DNA from: an uncultured Ruminococcus sp.
GTDB taxonomy: Bacteria; Bacillota; Clostridia; Oscillospirales; Ruminococcaceae
Assembly (NCBI GenBank): GCA_947176415.1
Contig: CAMWQJ010000008.1
Span: 1-45,792, forward strand
DNA: 45,792 nucleotides
Direction: 5' to 3'
Shown: in pieces, positions 17,125 through 26,700 of the stretch
How the letters are laid out: each line of letters starts with the position of its first letter
How positions within the stretch are numbered: position 1 is the stretch's first letter
Notes under the pieces: model-generated
Told to the model about the DNA's origin: nothing
Seen by the model: the letters and a program-made list of their open reading frames with translations, nothing else
Databases searched by the model: none
Translations under genes and position numbers: made by a program

Positions 17125-17805
17125 ATGGGTATATTCAGCAGATTAAGCGATGTGCTTAAATCAAATGTAAACGACCTGATTGATAAGGCGGAAGACCCTG
17201 AAAAGATGGTTAAGCAGATTATCCGTGATATGCAGATTGAACTTAACAAGGCTACGCAGAATTACGGTAAGGCTAAGGCAAGCGAACGTCTCGCAGAAAA
17301 GAAGTATCAGGACGCTGTAAAAGTTTCGCAGGGCTGGGAAGCTAAGGCTAAAACTGCTCTCGCACAGGGCAATGTTGACCTTGCAAAACAGGCTCTCGCC
17401 AAGAAGGTAAAGGCAGATGAGGACGTTTCCGCATATAAGGAAATGTACGATTCAATTTCAACACAGACCGAGGCAGTAGGAAATCAGGTAGAAGTACTTA
17501 AATCAAAGCTCGACGAGGCAAAGAGCCGTCAGGCTATGCTTATTGCACGCTCGCAGATGGCAGACACTCAGAAGAATATATCTAAGTCCACAGGCGGTTT
17601 TGACAGTTCTTCCGCACTTGAAAAGTTCAACAGAATGGAAGAAAAAGTTATGCACAAGGAGGCAGAGGCTGCCGCATTTACTGAAATTGCCGGCGGTGAC
17701 GATGCTGACCTGACAGATGCTTTCGCTCAGCTTGAAACGGACTCAAAGGTTGACAACGAGCTTGCAAGACTTATTGCAGAAATGAATAGCAAGGAAACTC
17801 TTTGA
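17125..17805 (+). CDS. pspA: PspA/IM30-family membrane-stress protein
   Basis: Peripheral membrane protein of 226 residues that in homologues forms ESCRT-III-like assemblies on stressed or damaged membranes. The start at 17125 follows AGGAGG by 7 bases; the in-frame ATG at 17101 lies upstream of that site. The N-terminal amphipathic helix (MGIFSRLSDVLKSNVNDLI) and the segment AEDPEKMVKQIIRDMQ are typical of the family. Long coiled-coil helices follow (about 25-150), then a short acidic helix near the C terminus (about 195-226). It is followed 5 bases later by a small membrane protein gene, which makes an operon with a likely membrane anchor or partner. Confidence 0.93.
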   Translation: MGIFSRLSDVLKSNVNDLIDKAEDPEKMVKQIIRDMQIELNKATQNYGKAKASERLAEKKYQDAVKVSQGWEAKAKTALAQGNVDLAKQALAKKVKADEDVSAYKEMYDSISTQTEAVGNQVEVLKSKLDEAKSRQAMLIARSQMADTQKNISKSTGGFDSSSALEKFNRMEEKVMHKEAEAAAFTEIAGGDDADLTDAFAQLETDSKVDNELARLIAEMNSKETL

Positions 17806-18092: not shown

Positions 18093-20021
18093 ATGCTTGT
18101 TGCTTTGAATAATATAAATAAAATTTTTAACGGGAATCATATTCTTAAAAATATTTCACTTACGATTGACGAAAACGATAAAATAGGACTTGTCGGCAAT
18201 AACGGGTGTGGCAAGTCTACGCTGTTAAAAATTATAACAGGCTCTACAGACCCCGACCGCGTTACCGAAAAGGACGGCGTTATTTCTTTTGCTTCAAAGA
18301 CTACTATCGGCTATCTCGAGCAAATGGGCGGACTTGATTCGGCTAAGACCGTTATGGAGGAAATGCAGAGCGTTTTTGCACCCGTTCACCGTGCGATAGA
18401 CCGTCTCCGAGAGATTGAGAGGGAAATTACACGGGGCGATAATTCGTCAGCGGACGAGTATCAGCAGTTGACATCATGGATAGAGGCTAACGACGGCTAC
18501 AACACGGACGTGAAAATCCGCATGATTTTAAACGGAATGGGTTTTTCGGAAAACGAATTAAACCGTACGGTTTCGGGATTCAGCGGTGGAGAAAAAACAA
18601 GGCTCTGCATTTCAAAGCTGTTGCTCGAAGAGCCTAATCTGCTGATACTGGACGAGCCGACGAATCACCTTGATTTCCGCACTATAATGTGGCTTGAAGA
18701 TTACCTCAGGTCTTACAAGGGGGCAGTGCTGATTGTTTCGCACGACAGGTATTTTCTTGACCGCCTCTGCACGTCGATATGCGAGATAGAGCGTGGAACG
18801 CTTACACGCTACAGGGGGAATTATTCGGCGTTTGTGCGACAGCGTGAAGAAAATGATGCACGCAGGGCAAAAGAGTATGAACTTCAGCAAAAGGAGATTG
18901 CCAAGTTGGAAGACTATGTGGCGAAAAATCTTGTCCGTGCGTCAACAACGAAAATGGCACAGAGCAAGCGGAAACAGCTTGAAAAAATGGAGCGTGTGGA
19001 AAAGCCTTATCACGATATGAGGACGGCGAAAATTCGGTTTACTTATCCTGTCGAACCGCCGATAGATGTGCTGAAGGTAAAGAATATTGACATATCGGTC
19101 GGCGAAGGAAAGGCGAGAAAAACGCTTGTTGACGGCATTGATTTTGAGGTGAGACGTGGCGAAAAAGTCGGAATAATCGGCGATAACGGTATAGGAAAGT
19201 CAACGCTTCTGAAAGTTATTCAGGAAAAAAACGAACACAAGGGGCTTGTCCGCTGGAACAGCAATATTAAAATTTCCTACTTCGAGCAGGAAAGTACAAA
19301 TCTTAATAAAGAGCTTACTGTAATGGAAGAAATCCACAGCCGTTATCCGTCAATGTCGGACTTAGAAGTCCGCAGTCTGCTGGCACAGGTGCGACTTACG
19401 GGTGAAAATGTTTTCAAGCAGACAGGCGTTATAAGCGGTGGAGAGAGGGCGAAACTTTGTTTTGCGATTATGATGCAGGAACACGGAAACGTGCTTATTC
19501 TGGACGAGCCGACGAATCATCTTGACTTGGCTTCAAAGGAAGCTGTCGAGGAAGCACTCGCAGAGTACACGGGAACGGTTATTTTTGTTTCGCATGACAG
19601 ATATTTGCTGAGCCGAATTGCCGACCGCCTTATTGAACTCAGGGACGGAAACTACAGGTGTCATAATTACGGATTTGAAAAATATCTTGACGTACTCCGT
19701 GACGAACAGGCGGAGCAAAAAAGGATTGCCGATGCCGAAAAATCCGCCAGAACAGCTGAAATTGCAAGGGAAAAAGCTGTAAAGACGTATCGAAGCAAAC
19801 AACAGCGGAGTGCGGACGCTTCACGCAAGAACGAAATGCGTAGGCTTGAAAAGGAAATAGACGAGTTGCAGAATAAAATTGATTTTCTGACGGAAGAGAT
19901 TTCGCATGAAGATGTTTACAGCGATTACGAACTTATGGCGGACAAGTGCCTTGAAATTGAAAATCTCAAGCAGAAAATGGAAGAAAATTTTGAAAAACTC
20001 ATTGAACTTGAAGAACAGTGA
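18093..20021 (+). CDS. ABC-F family ribosome-associated ATPase (YdiF-like)
   Basis: Soluble protein of 642 residues with two ATP-binding cassettes and no membrane segments, the layout of ABC-F translation factors. The ATG at 18093 follows AAGGTGGA; the earlier ATG at 18030 lies before the promoter boxes. Walker A motifs are GNNGCGKST (35-43) and GDNGIGKST (363-371). Signature motifs FSGGEKTRL and ISGGERAKL, and two copies of LILDEPTNHLD, are visible. The linker between the cassettes (about 240-310) is basic and helical, as expected for the arm that reaches the tRNA/peptidyl-transferase region. A C-terminal coiled coil (about 540-642) matches the YdiF/Uup class. The role is probably housekeeping ribosome rescue or assembly; an antibiotic-protection role cannot be excluded. 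Confidence 0.93.
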   Translation: MLVALNNINKIFNGNHILKNISLTIDENDKIGLVGNNGCGKSTLLKIITGSTDPDRVTEKDGVISFASKTTIGYLEQMGGLDSAKTVMEEMQSVFAPVHRAIDRLREIEREITRGDNSSADEYQQLTSWIEANDGYNTDVKIRMILNGMGFSENELNRTVSGFSGGEKTRLCISKLLLEEPNLLILDEPTNHLDFRTIMWLEDYLRSYKGAVLIVSHDRYFLDRLCTSICEIERGTLTRYRGNYSAFVRQREENDARRAKEYELQQKEIAKLEDYVAKNLVRASTTKMAQSKRKQLEKMERVEKPYHDMRTAKIRFTYPVEPPIDVLKVKNIDISVGEGKARKTLVDGIDFEVRRGEKVGIIGDNGIGKSTLLKVIQEKNEHKGLVRWNSNIKISYFEQESTNLNKELTVMEEIHSRYPSMSDLEVRSLLAQVRLTGENVFKQTGVISGGERAKLCFAIMMQEHGNVLILDEPTNHLDLASKEAVEEALAEYTGTVIFVSHDRYLLSRIADRLIELRDGNYRCHNYGFEKYLDVLRDEQAEQKRIADAEKSARTAEIAREKAVKTYRSKQQRSADASRKNEMRRLEKEIDELQNKIDFLTEEISHEDVYSDYELMADKCLEIENLKQKMEENFEKLIELEEQ

Positions 20022-20042
20022 TAAATTATGTCATTTATAAGC

Positions 20043-20077
20043 TGTATAATTATGCAGATTATACAAAAAATTTTTTT
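20043..20077 (+). terminator. Possible weak terminator after the ABC-F gene
   Basis: AT-rich eight-pair hairpin (20043-20050 with 20058-20065). The T tract follows only after several A residues, so termination efficiency is doubtful. Confidence 0.35.
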
Positions 20078-20091
20078 AGCTGAAAAAGATA

Positions 20092-20120
20092 TTGAAAAAT
20101 TATTCACGGTGTGATATAAT
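20092..20120 (+). promoter_or_regulatory. SigA-type promoter for the SCIFF locus
   Basis: TTGAAA at 20092-20097, 17-base spacer, TATAAT at 20115-20120. The untranslated leader is about 52 bases. Confidence 0.83.
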
Positions 20121-20129
20121 AATTGTAAA

Positions 20130-20155
20130 TTATTATGCGGTGAAAGCCGTAATAA
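20130..20155 (+). promoter_or_regulatory. Leader hairpin of the SCIFF transcript
   Basis: TTATTA-CGG pairs with CCG-TAATAA across a six-base loop, with a two-base bulge. It lies just after the predicted transcript start and could stabilise the RNA. Confidence 0.4.
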
Positions 20156-20178
20156 AAAATAAACGGAGGTTTAATTTT

Positions 20179-20316
20179 ATGAAACACATTCAGACTCTCA
20201 ATAAGGCTAATCTCAAGAAGTCCGCACAGAAAGGCGGTTGCGGAAAGTGTCAGGCTTCCTGCCAGTCTGCGTGCAAGACTTCATGCACAGTTGCTAACCA
20301 GAAGTGTGAGAGATAA
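20179..20316 (+). CDS. SCIFF ranthipeptide precursor (six cysteines in forty-five residues)
   Basis: A 45-residue peptide with cysteines at 21, 24, 28, 32, 36 and 43, exactly the SCIFF signature. The leader part starts MKHIQTLNKANLKKSAQKGG; the core follows from Cys21. The family is the most widespread ribosomally made modified peptide of Clostridia. In the Clostridium thermocellum homologue a radical SAM enzyme joins Cys32 to Thr37 by a thioether, and both residues are present here. GGAGGT lies 8 bases before the ATG. The precursor has its own promoter and is followed by a terminator hairpin before the next gene. The maturase is one gene further on, past a TIR-domain gene. The biological role of the peptide is not settled; quorum or growth control has been proposed. 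Confidence 0.95.
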   Translation: MKHIQTLNKANLKKSAQKGGCGKCQASCQSACKTSCTVANQKCER

Positions 20317-20338
20317 TTAAAATTTTTCGCATTTCATG

Positions 20339-20375
20339 TTAAGGCAGTATTGTTAAAATACTGTCTTAATTTTTT
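20339..20375 (+). terminator. Terminator/attenuator between SCIFF precursor and TIR gene
   Basis: Twelve-pair hairpin (20339-20350 with 20358-20369, one G-U, seven-base loop) followed by six T. No promoter fits between it and the next start codon, so the downstream genes probably depend on read-through. Confidence 0.8.
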
Positions 20376-20393
20376 AACGGAGGTAGAGTGACT

Positions 20394-21968
20394 ATGGTTT
20401 TCAGCTGTAAAATGTGCGGAGCAAATCTTGACGTTCAGGCAGGAATGCGTATGTGCAGATGTGACTACTGCGATTCCGTGCAGACTATTCCCGACCTTAG
20501 CAGTGAACACAAGGCGGAACTTTTCCGCAAGGCTAATAATCTGCGTTTCGCCTGTGATTTCGACCGTGCGTATAATGTCTATAAAGATATTGTGGCGGAT
20601 TTTCCCGAAGAGGCGGAGGCATGGTGGGGACTTTGTCTGTGCAAATACGGCGTTGAATACGTCACAGACCCTGAAACAAACCGACGTATTCCGACTTGTC
20701 ACAGGACTTCTTTTGAAAAGATTCTTGATATTCCTGAATTTCGGAAAGTCCTTGAATATTCTGAAAATAATATAAGAAATGTCTATATTCAGCTTGCGGA
20801 GACGATAGACGGCATTCAGCAGGGGATTCTTTCAATTGCGGTGAATGAAAAGCCGTTTGACGTTTTCATATGTTACAAGGAAACTGACGAGGACGGCAGA
20901 CGTTCCGCCGACGCTATGCTTGCCGAAAAACTTTATTCGGAGCTTACGGCACAGAATATAAAGGTGTTTTTTGCACCTGTAACACTCAGGGATAAACTCG
21001 GCACAGAGTTTGAACCATACATATATTCCGCCATAAATTCGGCACAGATTATGTTGTGTGTGGGAACTTCTGCGGAACATTTTGACGCTGTATGGGTGCG
21101 GAACGAGTGGAGCAGGTTTATTGAACTCATGAAAAAAGACAGGTCGAAAATAATTATTCCGTGTTATTCAGAAATGTCAATAAGTGGTCTGCCGATTGAG
21201 TTCAGGGGATTTCAGGCACAGGATTTGACGGAAAACAACGCTTTTGAAAACGTCGTGAAAAACGTTCAGGACATAATGAAAGCAAGCGAGGGTGCAAAAT
21301 CACAGCTTAACGTCCTTATGGAACAGTTCGAGGGACAGCTGAGGAACGAGCGTGGCAAGCTCAGACAGCTTGAAAGTCTGCAACACAAGATTCTGACGAA
21401 GGAAAAGAAAAATGCTAAAAAAATTTACAAAAAAGAAAGAATTTCCCCGATAAGTCTTTTCCTGCTTGATATTCTTATTGTATTGTCCACTTTGGTATTA
21501 TTTATGTCATTCGGCGGGTGGGCGGCTTTGCCTGCAATTCTGATTTTGGAATTTATCATCATACTTGCTGTTGAAGTGCCGTATGCGGTTAAACGAAACC
21601 GAGAAGCGAAAGAAAATTTTGAAAGGCGTATAGCTTATGATGAGAATGCTCCCGATTTTGACTATGGCAGTCAGAACAGTGAAATAGTTCAGCTTCGGGA
21701 AATGGCTATGAAAGAGTATGATAAAAAACACTTTACATTAGGCAAAACAGCGTTACTCTATATTGCAGGGTGGAATCTTGCAAAACTTCCCATAATATAT
21801 ATCGTGGACATAATCGATTATCTGCCGATAGCCTCGGATTTGGTAGTGGCATTTTTTCATCTGCTACTGCCCGTCGTGGGACTTGTTTTCATAATCAGGC
21901 ACAATAAAAAGTTAAAAAGAGAACTCGACGAGAAGTTAGAGATAATAAACAAGAAAAATAAAATCTGA
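20394..21968 (+). CDS. Zinc-ribbon, TPR-like and TIR-domain membrane protein inside the SCIFF locus
   Basis: Protein of 524 residues. The ATG at 20394 is 9 bases after GGAGGT; an upstream GTG is too close to that site. Seen in order: a zinc ribbon (C5-x2-C8 and C23-x2-C26), a helical TPR-like region (about 35-145), a TIR domain beginning KPFDVFICYKETDEDG at 153 (to about 290), a coiled segment, two membrane helices (about 352-398), an amphipathic stretch, and further hydrophobic helices (about 450-505). Glu207 in GTEFEPYI aligns, by my reading, with the catalytic glutamate of NAD-cleaving TIR domains. Zinc-ribbon TIR proteins are common in Firmicutes; a place between a SCIFF precursor and its maturase is not something I know of. 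The maturase starts 14 bases downstream. Function may be NAD-linked signalling or defence, or membrane export and control of the peptide; neither is shown. Confidence 0.8.
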   Translation: MVFSCKMCGANLDVQAGMRMCRCDYCDSVQTIPDLSSEHKAELFRKANNLRFACDFDRAYNVYKDIVADFPEEAEAWWGLCLCKYGVEYVTDPETNRRIPTCHRTSFEKILDIPEFRKVLEYSENNIRNVYIQLAETIDGIQQGILSIAVNEKPFDVFICYKETDEDGRRSADAMLAEKLYSELTAQNIKVFFAPVTLRDKLGTEFEPYIYSAINSAQIMLCVGTSAEHFDAVWVRNEWSRFIELMKKDRSKIIIPCYSEMSISGLPIEFRGFQAQDLTENNAFENVVKNVQDIMKASEGAKSQLNVLMEQFEGQLRNERGKLRQLESLQHKILTKEKKNAKKIYKKERISPISLFLLDILIVLSTLVLFMSFGGWAALPAILILEFIIILAVEVPYAVKRNREAKENFERRIAYDENAPDFDYGSQNSEIVQLREMAMKEYDKKHFTLGKTALLYIAGWNLAKLPIIYIVDIIDYLPIASDLVVAFFHLLLPVVGLVFIIRHNKKLKRELDEKLEIINKKNKI

Positions 21969-21982
21969 AAGGAAAATTTAAA

Positions 21983-23356
21983 ATGATACATAAGTACAAA
22001 TTAAACGGATTCAATATTGTTCTGGACGTGAACAGCGGAGGAGTTCACATTGTGGACGAGCTGACATATGATTTGCTTGACAATGTACAACTGCCTTTTG
22101 AGGAGGAAGTCCCTGAAAAAGCGTTTGAAAAGCTCTCGAAAGTTTATGACGCTGAGGAGATAAAGACCTGTTATGCCGAGATTGTTGAACTTTACAACGA
22201 CGGTATACTTTTTTCAAAAGATGACTATGAAAAATATGCGGACTGCTCGGTTGCATCGCCCGTAAAGGCTATGTGCCTGAATATCGCACACGACTGTAAT
22301 CTCCGCTGTAAATACTGTTTCGCTTCAACAGGCGACTTCGGCAAGGGCAGAAAGCTTATGTCCTTTGAGACGGGTAAGCACGCTATTGATTTTCTTCTTG
22401 AAAATTCAGGCGACCGTCCGACCCTTGAACTTGACTTCTTCGGCGGTGAGCCTCTTATGAATTTCGATGTTGTTAAAAAGATTGTTAAATATGCGAGGAG
22501 CAGGGAAGCGGAGTTTAAAAAGAAATTCCGTTTTACGATTACCACAAACGGAATGTTGCTTGACGACGACAAGATAGATTTTATCAATGAAGAAATGTCA
22601 AATGTTGTTCTTTCGATTGACGGACGCAAGGAGATAAACGACTATATGAGACCCAGACCCGACGGCAGTGGCAGTTATGACAGGATTTTACCGCTTTTTA
22701 AAAAACTTGTCGAAAAGCGTGGCGACAAGGAATATTATGTCAGAGGAACTTTCACGAGCCGTAACCTTGACTTCTCGAATGACGTTTTCGCTCTGTATAA
22801 TGCAGGCTTCGACCAGATTTCAATTGAGCCTGTTGTAAGCGGTTCTGAGGAACTCGCACTCACGGAAAAAAATCTCCCTGACGTTTTCAATGAATACGAG
22901 CGACTCGCAGACAGAATAATTGAAAATGAAAAAAACGGTAAAAAATTCAACTTTTTCCATTTCATGATAGACCTTGACCAAGGACCTTGTGCAATAAAAC
23001 GTCTCCGTGGCTGTGGTTGCGGAAACGACTATGTGGCGATTACTCCCGACGGAGATATTTTCCCATGTCACCAGTTTGTCGGAATGGACGAGTATAAAAT
23101 GGGCAATATCGACGAGGGGACTTTTAATCAGGAAATGAAAGCGGATTTCGCAAAGGCACACATTTATACAAAACCTGAGTGTAAAAAATGCTGGGCAAAG
23201 TTCTATTGCAGTGGCGGTTGCAATGCGAATAACTATCAGTATATGGGCGATATAAGGACGGCACATAAGCTGTCATGTCAGCTTGAAAAAAAGCGTCTCG
23301 AGTGTGCAATTATGCTTAAAGCCATGAAGATGATGAACGAGCAGGAGAATGAGTAA
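21983..23356 (+). CDS. SCIFF maturase, radical SAM-SPASM thioether-forming enzyme
   Basis: Predicted maturase (homologue of CteB and Tte1186) that makes Cys-to-Thr thioether links in the SCIFF peptide. Length is 457 residues, normal for the family. An N-terminal RiPP-recognition-like region (about 1-90, HKYKLNGFNIVLDVNSGGVH) binds the leader in homologues. The radical SAM cluster is C105-x3-C109-x2-C112 (CNLRCKYC). The FFGGEP motif (about 152-157) holds SAM. The SPASM region at the C terminus carries the extra cysteines for two auxiliary iron-sulphur clusters (CGCGNDYVAITPDGDIFPC and CKKCWAKFYCSGGC). AAAGGA precedes the ATG. It lies in the same transcript as the TIR gene and overlaps the start of the next gene by one base. 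Confidence 0.95.
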   Translation: MIHKYKLNGFNIVLDVNSGGVHIVDELTYDLLDNVQLPFEEEVPEKAFEKLSKVYDAEEIKTCYAEIVELYNDGILFSKDDYEKYADCSVASPVKAMCLNIAHDCNLRCKYCFASTGDFGKGRKLMSFETGKHAIDFLLENSGDRPTLELDFFGGEPLMNFDVVKKIVKYARSREAEFKKKFRFTITTNGMLLDDDKIDFINEEMSNVVLSIDGRKEINDYMRPRPDGSGSYDRILPLFKKLVEKRGDKEYYVRGTFTSRNLDFSNDVFALYNAGFDQISIEPVVSGSEELALTEKNLPDVFNEYERLADRIIENEKNGKKFNFFHFMIDLDQGPCAIKRLRGCGCGNDYVAITPDGDIFPCHQFVGMDEYKMGNIDEGTFNQEMKADFAKAHIYTKPECKKCWAKFYCSGGCNANNYQYMGDIRTAHKLSCQLEKKRLECAIMLKAMKMMNEQENE

Positions 23357-23718
23357 TGAAACGCCGAACACGCACGATAACCGTAAACGGCAGAAAATAC
23401 GTCTGGTGGAATAGTTTTATTAATTACACGACATCTTTATTTCTGTCGCCTGAGGGTGATAAGACTTCAACTATCAGTGTTGATTTTACGGACGAGTTAG
23501 TCAGCGGTCAATTCAATATGGGTGTGATTGTCAGAAAAGGCGAAACGGAAAAATCTGTAAAAATAGTCGAGCCGGCAATGGCTGGACTTGTTCTGCCGTA
23601 TTTGCAGGAGCAGGAAATTTTCAGACCCCGTAAACATATTGTAATGGACGGCTGTGAACTGCTTGAAAAAATGGGCTATGAGGTCGTCGGAATAAAAAAG
23701 GGTTTATACTGGGATTAA
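23356..23718 (+). CDS. Unknown 120-residue protein coupled to the SCIFF maturase
   Basis: I do not recognise this protein. The start codon shares one base with the maturase stop (TAATG) and has AGGAGA 7 bases upstream, so the two are translationally coupled. It is soluble and basic at the N terminus (MKRRTRTITVNGRKYVWW), then beta-rich, with a short C-terminal region HIVMDGCELLEKMGYEVVG that looks alpha/beta. No signal peptide, membrane helix or metal motif is visible; it has one cysteine. Coupling suggests a partner of the maturase or of the peptide, such as a chaperone or recognition factor, or simply a neighbour. It ends at a strong terminator. Confidence 0.8.
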   Translation: MKRRTRTITVNGRKYVWWNSFINYTTSLFLSPEGDKTSTISVDFTDELVSGQFNMGVIVRKGETEKSVKIVEPAMAGLVLPYLQEQEIFRPRKHIVMDGCELLEKMGYEVVGIKKGLYWD

Positions 23719-23724
23719 AAAAAT

Positions 23725-23750
23725 TCCCCCGAAAAATCGGGGGAGTTTTT
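23725..23750. terminator. Bidirectional terminator between the SCIFF locus and rpoC
   Basis: Perfect eight-pair hairpin TCCCCCGA/TCGGGGGA with loop AAAA, flanked by T tracts on both strands. It serves the converging transcripts and nearly repeats the hairpin at 13034-13058. Confidence 0.88.
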
Positions 23751-23753
23751 GTT

Positions 23754-26700
23754 TTATACTATGTTGTTTGCAATTGCGGTGGCGTGTTCAAGGTAGGAGT
23801 CGTTTTTTACAATCTTGACGTTGTTGTAGCACTCCATGCCAGTACCAGCCGGAATAAGTTTACCGATAATAACATTTTCCTTGAGACCAAGCAGACGGTC
23901 GCTTTTTCCTCTGATAGCTGCGTCCGTGAGAGCCTTTGTTGTTTCCTGAAATGATGCGGCGGACATAAAGCTGTCTGAATTTGACGAGGCTTTTGTGATA
24001 CCCTGAAGTACGGCACTTGTCTGCACAAGCTGTAAATCGTATTCACCTGCATCAATTCTTGCCTGAATGTCGGCATTTATAGCATCTATTTCCTTGCTGT
24101 CCACGAGAGTTCCGGGGAGGAGATAACTGCTTCCCGTCTCTTCAACCTTGATTTTGCGGAGCATTTGCCTTACAATAACTTCAATGTGCTTGTCGTTGAT
24201 GTCAACACCTTGCAGACGGTAAACTTTCTGAACTTCATTTATAATATAGTTCTGTACCGCCTGTGTGCCGAGTATATTAAGAATGTCAGTAGGATAAATA
24301 TTTCCCTCGGTGAGACGAGTTCCCTTTTCAATCGGCTTGCCTTCCTGAACTTCCTGCGTTCTGATTTTGAGATTGTAGGGAATCATATAGCTTTCGGACT
24401 CGCCTGTCTCTTCGTTTGTTACTATGATATTCTGTGTTGTCTTGACTTCCTCGATGTGTACAGTACCCGAAATCCTCGAGAGTATGGCAGCACCTTTTGG
24501 TCGTCTGCTTTCAAAGAGTTCCTCAACACGTGGAAGACCCTGCGTAATATCTTCGGCATCGGCAGAGGCAACACCACCCGTGTGGAATGTTCGCATTGTA
24601 AGCTGTGTACCCGGTTCGCCGATAGACTGTGCGGCAATTACGCCGACCGCCTCGCCGACCGATACGATATTATTGTTTGCGAGGTTTGCACCGTAGCATT
24701 TTGCACAGACACCTGTTCTTGCTTTACACTGAAGAACGGAACGGATTTTTATTTTTTCAATTCCCGTGTCGATGATTTTTTTAGCGTCAGCGTCCGTGAT
24801 TAGCTTGTTGCGTGAAACGATAAGTTCGCCAGTCGAGTCCCTCAAATCGTCCGAGAGATACCTGCCAACAAGACGTTCAGCGAACGGCTCGACCACTTCA
24901 TTGCCGTTTCTGATTTCATAAACTTCGATACCCTCAGTTGTTCCGCAGTCTTCTTCACGGATAATAACGTCCTGCGAAACGTCAACAAGACGGCGTGTTA
25001 AATAACCTGAGTCAGCGGTACGGAGTGCGGTATCGGCAAGACCTTTTCTTGCACCACGGGAAGCTATGAAGTATTCGAGGATATTAAGTCCCTCACGGTA
25101 GTTAGCACGGATAGGTATTTCAATTACAGTACCCGAAGTATTGGCAATAAGTCCACGCATACCTGCAAGCTGACGAATCTGCGAAATAGAACCTCTCGCA
25201 CCTGAGTCAGCCATCATCCAGATAGGATTGTAGCGGTCGAAATTCTCCTTGAGTTTCTTTGTAACTTCGTCTGTCGTGTTCGTCCAGAGAGAAATAATTT
25301 TCTTTGTCTTTTCCTGAGACGAGATATAGCCGAACTCATATTCATTCGTAATCTGTTCAACTTCTGCGTCCGCATTTGCGAGAATTTCTTTCTTTTCTGG
25401 CGGAATCGAGGCATCGCATACAGCAACAGTAAGTGCCGCCCTTGTCGAGTATTTATAGCCGAGAGCCTTTATTCTGTCAAGAACTTCGGAAGTCGTCGTT
25501 GTGCCGTGGATTTTTATACAACGCTCGATAATGTCGGAAAGCTGTTTTTTGCCGACGAGGAAAGAGATTTCGAGGTCGAACTGCTTGTCAGAGTTAGTCC
25601 TGTCAACATATCCGAGATTCTGAGGGATATTTTCATTGAAAATCAGTCTGCCGACGGTTGCATTTATAATTTTTGAGACTTTCTTGTCTCCGATATCCTT
25701 AGTGATTTTAACACGAATATTTGCGTGAAGTGAAATATCATGCTCGTTGTAAGCCATTAGTGCTTCATTGACATCACGGAATACTTTTCCCTCGCCCTTT
25801 TCGTTAGGCTTATCCATTGTGAGATAGTAAGAGCCAAGCACCATATCCTGCGACGGAACGGCAACAGGTTTGCCGTCAGAGGGCTTAAGGAGGTTGTTTG
25901 CTGCGAGCATAAGGAAACGTGCCTCTGCCTGTGCTTCTGCGGACAGCGGAAGATGTACAGCCATCTGGTCGCCGTCGAAGTCGGCATTAAAAGCCGAGCA
26001 TACGAGAGGGTGGAGCTTTATTGCACGACCCTCAACGAGAATCGGTTCAAAAGCCTGAATGCCGAGACGGTGGAGCGTAGGAGCTCGGTTAAGCATAACG
26101 GGGTGGTCTTTGATAACGTCCTCGAGAGCGTCCCACACCTTATTGTCTGCACGGTCGATAAGTTTTCTTGCACTCTTTATATTTGCGATTGCCTTTTTGT
26201 CGACAAGTCTTTTCAGGACAAACGGCTTGAAAAGTTCGAGTGCCATTTCTTTCGGAAGTCCGCACTGATACATTTTAAGTTCAGGACCTACTACAATAAC
26301 GGAACGTCCCGAGTAGTCAACACGCTTGCCAAGGAGATTCTGACGGAAACGTCCCTGTTTGCCTTTAAGCATATCCGAGAGGGACTTTAATGCACGGTTG
26401 TTAGGACCTGTAACGGGTCTGCCGTGTCTGCCGTTGTCGATAAGAGCGTCGACAGCTTCCTGTAACATTCTCTTTTCGTTTCTCACGATAATATCGGGAG
26501 CGTCGAGTTCAAGCATTCTTTTTAGACGGTTATTCCTATTTATAACACGCCTGTAGAGGTCGTTAAGGTCGGAAGTCGCATAACGTCCGCCGTCAAGCAT
26601 AATCATCGGTCTGATGTCAGGCGGAATTACGGGGATAACGTCAAGTATCATCCATTCGGGCTTGTTGCCTGAGAGACGGAAAGCCTCTATAATCTGAAGT

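Follow-up and report, generated by a model that had tools for sequence, protein, structure and literature searches.

A TIR-domain gene recurs between the SCIFF precursor gene and its maturase gene in part of a Ruminococcus-like genus

The window analysed here, a stretch of 45,792 nucleotides from an uncultured Ruminococcus sp. (contig CAMWQJ010000008.1 of assembly GCA_947176415.1, which is 91.6% complete in 130 contigs), carries the genes for SCIFF, a six-cysteine ranthipeptide precursor, and for ScfB, its radical SAM-SPASM maturase, and between the two lies a gene for a protein with a TIR domain, a fold that often serves for the cleavage of nicotinamide adenine dinucleotide (NAD). This arrangement is real and recurrent. 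To the reading that we favour we give an even chance: it is an ordinary SCIFF/ScfB operon that, in part of one Ruminococcus-like genus, has an accessory gene in addition, whose product is a membrane-type TIR protein recruited to the SCIFF transcript. The locus resembles the known SCIFF/ScfB system (TIGR03973/TIGR03974) in its six-cysteine precursor, its dedicated radical SAM-SPASM maturase and their adjoining genes, and differs from it by a TIR gene that, in at least 21 of 125 genomes of the window's genus, comes between SCIFF and ScfB.

The promoter, the six-cysteine precursor, the two hairpins and the maturase named in an earlier reading of the letters of this DNA (the original prediction) were all found again, precursor and maturase well above the cut-offs of their families (Table 1). 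ScfB also matches PF04055 (radical SAM) and PF13186 (SPASM). SCIFF itself is widespread, and lies above the cut-off in 115 of 148 genomes of the family.

Recurrence of the gene order

We drew 100 genomes evenly from the genus and measured the gaps between SCIFF and ScfB from profile match to profile match, not from stop to start, and did likewise in the family sample. The genus sample gave 93 SCIFF-ScfB pairs in 92 genomes. In 76 of the pairs the gap is 70-221 bp (median 93) and the TIR gene is absent, and in the other 17 it is 1662-1706 bp with the TIR gene inside every one. As a bare count, the 17 of 93 argue against chance placement. One genome, G187, has two pairs, on contigs C14 and C18, and is perhaps a mixed assembly or holds a real duplicate.

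A wider search of 125 genus genomes at an E-value of 1e-110, where weaker members could be missed, matched the TIR protein in 22 of them; 21 of these are SCIFF-linked and one (G175) is a relative linked to an SPFH gene. The 21 are the 17 of the gap survey and four more, among them G252, whose contig ends in the TIR gene with ScfB unseen. A scan of named genomes, partly the same genomes and hence not an independent set, gave 35 loci that encode relatives of the TIR protein. Thirteen are orthologues (L022-L033 and L040; L029 is cut by the contig end, L033 and L040 are in pieces) and all 13 stand directly after SCIFF; the other 22 have neither a SCIFF nor a ScfB match in their stretch. L028 comes from a contig titled Alistipes senegalensis (JAMPEF010000002.1) and carries the locus, with a TIR protein that groups with the Ruminococcus rows; a wrong label or contamination of this record is possible.

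Among the 148 genomes sampled from the family, 12 have a match of any kind to the TIR protein. Of the 119 SCIFF loci in this sample, 115 have a ScfB partner that lies on their own contig and strand, and in 110 cases the gap does not exceed 400 bp. The five larger gaps are those of G000 and G135, which hold the TIR gene, and those of G110, G021 and G094 (498 bp), in which no TIR match was found. The G021 gap contains an assembly gap and no sense gene that we recognised. In G110 (L171:2876-4126) a gene that by eye is DNA polymerase IV-like lies between SCIFF and ScfB. Outside the genus the TIR gene is in the gap of 0 of the 112 sampled pairs, which speaks against a necessary link to maturation.

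The original prediction had proposed to score how often a TIR gene lies between precursor and maturase, and these surveys give the answer. It had also held that the grouping would be accidental if the gene stood here in only one or two genomes and elsewhere in relatives. With at least 21 SCIFF-linked copies we reject an accident of a single genome, and the TIR genes that are placed elsewhere in relatives belong to other branches of the TIR family.

The absences, in 76 of 93 pairs within the genus and in every sampled pair outside it, favour the explanation that the TIR gene is a passenger, i.e. that it entered the gap, is co-transcribed by position only, is unrelated to the peptide, is kept by a conserved neighbourhood and is freely lost. 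We consider this somewhat unlikely, though it deserves serious weight. That the same gap in G110 can hold a quite different gene agrees with it. Against it stands that SCIFF or ScfB occurs in none of the examined stretches of the other homologues.

Evolution of the TIR gene

In the phylogeny of the TIR proteins the 17 SCIFF-linked rows form one clade (support 100/95) apart from the 56 others. Three of 76 rows were left out of the tree (the piece in L033, a third copy in L034, and L043), and the linked copies of G149, G150, G252 and G264, which stand outside it, are assigned to the clade by identity and position. The hosts are not one clade. The ScfB tree, with 64 rows of which 17 come from loci with the TIR gene, needs four changes, at least three of them forced; a quick tree of ABC-F and ScfB together, made from the 40 of 55 loci where both genes were long enough (15 with the TIR gene; G205, locus L129, left out), needs three. 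In this quick tree a single clade of hosts with the TIR gene was rejected by the approximately unbiased (AU) test (p 2.31e-5). One clade of TIR genes in hosts that are not one clade would therefore mean either an early gain in the genus followed by frequent losses, or transfer of the gene from host to host into one and the same site. A single lineage at a single site in such hosts speaks against a passenger.

The ratio of non-synonymous to synonymous substitution rates (dN/dS) points the same way. For the TIR gene, the 12 closest of 66 pairs of intact copies give 0.12-0.19, well below 1; for ScfB, the 12 closest of 55 pairs give 0.02-0.05, so the TIR gene is held more loosely than ScfB (12 loci were used, and the ScfB of L126 was dropped since its matched stretch holds a stop). 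In favour of a passenger are again the copies that look broken, with internal stops or split frames, 3 of 21 (G150, G174 and G149), of which some may be assembly errors. In all three genomes SCIFF and ScfB stand above their cut-offs beside the broken-looking copy, and the TIR protein is thus probably dispensable for making the peptide. The gene for an ABC-F ATPase lies upstream of SCIFF on the same strand in 14 of the 16 other stretches with the TIR gene and also in 26 of 39 without it, which is what a conserved neighbourhood with a passenger in it would look like.

Transcription of the unit

Single promoter-like or terminator-like sites prove little in this DNA because of the background of the scans: there are 27 promoter-like sites against a mean of 8.9 in shuffles (standard deviation 3.6), and 7 terminator-like sites against 4.0 (standard deviation 2.1), a slight excess. 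A looser promoter pattern lies no more than 150 nt upstream of SCIFF in 17 of 17 loci with the TIR gene and 38 of 39 without, and a hairpin with a T tract 3' of SCIFF in the same numbers, 17 of 17 and 38 of 39, both being counts without a chance control. The loose promoter pattern also occurs inside one of the 17 gaps (L128), and a promoter may lie within the SCIFF gene. In the loci with the TIR gene the distance from hairpin to TIR start is about 15-39 nt (two starts are off by a few nt), which leaves little space for a promoter of the TIR gene's own. Read-through transcription therefore probably covers both TIR and ScfB.

The hairpin after SCIFF keeps a similar core of the type GAGGCAGT...ACTGCCTC in many loci, in the window and at the matching place in L116-L169, with flanks that differ, and its role may go beyond that of a simple terminator. 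Rfam at its gathering threshold finds no known RNA between the genes at 19000-24500.

The grouping made by the original prediction stands in part. It is recurrent, it involves one clade of TIR genes, and there is little space for a promoter of their own; on the other side, SCIFF and ScfB lack the TIR gene between them in most relatives.

The peptide and the TIR protein

Quorum sensing is listed for SCIFF in a passage of a review that cites Chen 2020 (PMC8326336). The original prediction had a link from the ranthipeptide to NAD-based signalling or membrane control in view. In this line it could be imagined that the TIR protein has mature SCIFF as its ligand or inhibitor, so that peptide level or cell density would be turned into membrane signalling based on NAD. 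We think this improbable. The tie of one TIR lineage to the SCIFF site, the shared transcript that the geometry suggests and the listed quorum sensing are what it would predict, and there is a precedent of a kind in the TIR-AP-ATPase gene downstream of actinobacterial FxSxx systems (in a section of PMC7159879). Most sampled SCIFF-ScfB pairs, however, have no TIR gene, and broken-looking TIR copies sit beside intact SCIFF and ScfB. Nor does the peptide co-vary with its neighbour: we found no SCIFF residue that separates the 17 loci with the TIR gene from the 39 without, which would also be expected of a passenger, and the sole trend limited to one group is Lys45, in 4 of 17 against 0 of 39. With this, the 76 of 93 genus pairs and all 112 outside pairs that lack the gene, and the three broken copies, the idea that the TIR gene is necessary for peptide maturation is not supported.

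Still less probable, in our view, is a more specific form in which the SCIFF-linked TIR protein is a dedicated ranthipeptide receptor-effector of the membrane, and matured SCIFF, or the act of maturation, gates its clustering and its cleavage of NAD+.

The TIR protein itself probably begins at the ATG at 20394, since 15 of 17 loci compared have ATG at that place; in L130 the start is one codon earlier, and in L125 our script placed it a few codons early. The original prediction had described a protein with zinc ribbon, TIR domain and membrane part. The TIR domain is borne out, at 47.9 bits against a cut-off of 28 for TIR_2 (PF13676), whereas the zinc ribbon is seen by eye, with no match to a zinc-ribbon family of Pfam. 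All 17 linked rows have the four N-terminal cysteines, in two CxxC pairs, and so do 54 of the 56 other rows; the remaining two have gaps there. A TPR signal in the window protein lies below the cut-off, and a profile of 27 relatives searched against PDB finds TPR structures (20 sequences at an E-value of 0.1, mostly TPR), with no TIR entry among these 20.

The glutamate of the W-x3-E motif is what we take to be the catalytic place in the flax L6 TIR domain. Aligned to it is E240 in the numbering from GTG, or E238 from the ATG (E-value 0.65, and 0.39 on repeat, not significant), and E238 is found in every one of the 73 aligned homologues. The catalytic glutamate had been predicted at Glu207, which is probably the wrong residue: position 207 falls in a GTEFEP stretch, and is invariant if counted from the ATG and not if counted from the GTG. 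On this weak alignment, and on the conservation, we set Glu207 aside for Glu238 as the candidate. A glutamate of this kind is required in TIR enzymes, e.g. E642 of SARM1 and E100 of RUN1 according to the relevant part of PMC7282519, and catalytic glutamates are given as E208 in AbTir and E85 in ThsB in the relevant part of PMC10022894.

Relatives of the TIR protein and known systems

For most of the relatives that are not linked to SCIFF, the alignment covers residues 1 to roughly 300; their C-terminal parts differ, with for instance RCC1 repeats in L036. They occur in tandem, with five copies in L041. Loci of this zinc-ribbon-like/TPR/TIR family, for which we found no NCBIfam model, were seen in L034, L036-L039, L041 and L176-L193. 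Around non-SCIFF relatives in the genus an SPFH match lies within about 2.2 kb of the TIR match in 14 of 20 regions. These 20 comprise 18 of the closer class, from all of its 16 genomes except G230, and two of the distant class, from 2 of its 14 genomes. PF13421 is present in all three SPFH proteins that we scanned, and two of these also have zinc-ribbon families above cut-off. YdjI, an SPFH protein of Bacillus subtilis, acts with YdjG/H to connect PspA to the membrane, as described in part of PMC8581546. There is thus a likeness to the PspA-YdjGHI module, in the SPFH (PF13421) genes with zinc ribbons near the relatives and in the PspA gene that the window has at 17125-17805; unlike the module, in whose description, as far as the accessible text of PMC8581546 goes, the word TIR is absent, we deal with a TIR gene, and the SCIFF-linked one has no SPFH neighbour; the window lacks the SPFH-TIR pair of its relatives. 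Because of these SPFH neighbours, and of the link between SPFH and PspA at the membrane in B. subtilis, the SCIFF-linked TIR protein may belong to a membrane-associated TIR family, as one branch of it that has become tied to the SCIFF transcript.

How an accessory TIR gene recruited to the SCIFF operon would work can be sketched. One transcript would begin before SCIFF and much of it would end at the hairpin, giving more precursor, and read-through past the hairpin would give smaller amounts of the TIR protein and ScfB together. The C-terminal helices would anchor the TIR protein in the membrane, its N-terminal zinc-ribbon and TPR-like part would bind a partner, and once clustered it could cleave NAD+ by means of Glu238; these three steps are proposed because members of the family are often found near SPFH/band-7 zinc-ribbon genes. 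The protein would then be a switch for membrane state or stress that is co-expressed with SCIFF, and direct contact between peptide and TIR protein is possible.

Several points weigh against this sketch. Inheritance of a conserved neighbourhood could by itself hold the TIR gene in place. By hydropathy, the one line of evidence on this point, the protein may be anchored in the membrane, and the presumed NADase activity depends on one residue from an alignment that is not significant. No SPFH match was found in 6 of the 20 regions around relatives, both of the most distant class included, and for an SPFH partner of the relatives' type the window genome, which is 91.6% complete in its assembly, offers a weak C-terminal match on another contig. 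PADLOC has no match to the window TIR protein at an E-value of 0.1.

A known defence system is rejected for the locus, as SCIFF, the TIR protein and the small downstream gene orfD all lack a PADLOC match and the defence TIR models of NCBIfam stay far below their cut-offs; ScfB merely resembles radical SAM viperins in the same scan. The window protein is like ThsB of Thoeris and other bacterial defence TIR proteins in its TIR domain and in the glutamate that probably takes the W-x3-E position, and differs from them in scoring 16.5 bits of 600 for Retron TIR and 15.1 of 220 for ThcB4. Its relatives have weak defence matches only, the best being PDC-S66 (1.6e-5) and ThsB (1.6e-4). Among open PMC papers we found none that joins TIR domain, SPFH and anti-phage, and none that joins SCIFF, or a radical SAM maturase, with a TIR domain; a rumen-culture survey calls ranthipeptides widespread and has no mention of TIR in its accessible text (PMC13289728).

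A TIR gene beside a radical SAM-SPASM peptide system is not wholly new in kind, since section 24 of PMC7159879 describes a TIR-AP-ATPase gene downstream of FxSxx radical SAM-SPASM systems in actinobacteria. Those systems are alike in the adjoining TIR-domain gene and different in having another peptide, metallopeptidase and vWA partners, a downstream TIR fused to AP-ATPase, and no SCIFF; in the window the peptide is SCIFF and the TIR protein matches no ATPase family (a metallopeptidase was not searched for).

Neighbouring genes

The original prediction had placed a coupled protein of no known kind, orfD, at the end of the unit. The gene is present, and it matches nothing in Pfam, NCBIfam or PADLOC at an E-value of 0.1. 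It is not a constant part: matches occur in 15 of 100 genus genomes, 10 of these on the ScfB contig, and in 1 of 148 family genomes, and as a core part it was rejected. Distant copies (38-42%) are found in five genus genomes, and the 126-aa neighbour of an orfD orthologue (L122:6478-6858) likewise has no Pfam match. Three of four relatives (L122:6030-6470, L117 and L119) have a gene of cytidine deaminase type after ScfB or overlapping it, at the place that orfD has in the window; the family match is for L122 only, and in L119 the gene is split. After the last hairpin of the window locus comes a gene on the opposite strand that by eye is rpoC-like.

Table 1. Features of the SCIFF locus in the window
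Feature	Position	Strand	Basis
ABC-F ATPase gene upstream of SCIFF, frequent neighbour in the genus	18093..20021	+	NF000355 444.8 bits (cut-off 380)
Promoter-like site TTGAAA-17-TATAAT with TG	20092..20120	+	11/12 matches to pattern
SCIFF six-cysteine ranthipeptide precursor, 45 aa	20179..20316	+	PF13165 84.3 bits (cut-off 27); TIGR03973 81.4 bits (cut-off 50)
Hairpin and T tract 3' of SCIFF, terminator or attenuator	20338..20370	+	Pattern scan
TIR protein, 524 aa from the probable start; CxxC pairs at the N-terminus, hydrophobic segments at the C-terminus	20394..21968	+	TIR_2 47.9 bits; start codon by conservation; orthologues
N-terminal zinc-ribbon-like stretch: Cys5, Cys8, Cys23, Cys26 (ATG numbering)	20406..20471	+	By eye
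TIR domain	20862..21248	+	Matches PF13676 over residues 159-287 (numbered from GTG)
Codon for Glu238 (240 counted from GTG), the candidate catalytic residue	21105..21107	+	Weak alignment to flax L6 TIR; conservation 73/73
Membrane-like C-terminal region, most hydrophobic at residues 353-371 and 483-501	21450..21896	+	Kyte-Doolittle scan only
ScfB, radical SAM-SPASM SCIFF maturase, 457 aa	21983..23356	+	TIGR03974 712.6 bits (cut-off 425)
orfD, 120 aa, matches no known family; variable neighbour, not core	23356..23718	+	Pfam, NCBIfam and PADLOC scans
Terminator-like hairpin closing the unit	23719..23750	+	Pattern scan

Conclusions

Through this locus a family of zinc-ribbon-like/TPR/TIR proteins comes into view whose C-terminal parts vary and whose genes often have SPFH genes nearby. 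If the TIR protein were indeed a receptor-effector for the peptide, this would give a defined output for a widespread clostridial peptide. A TIR gene that is kept between precursor and maturase in scattered members of the genus would in any case be a handle on the function of SCIFF.

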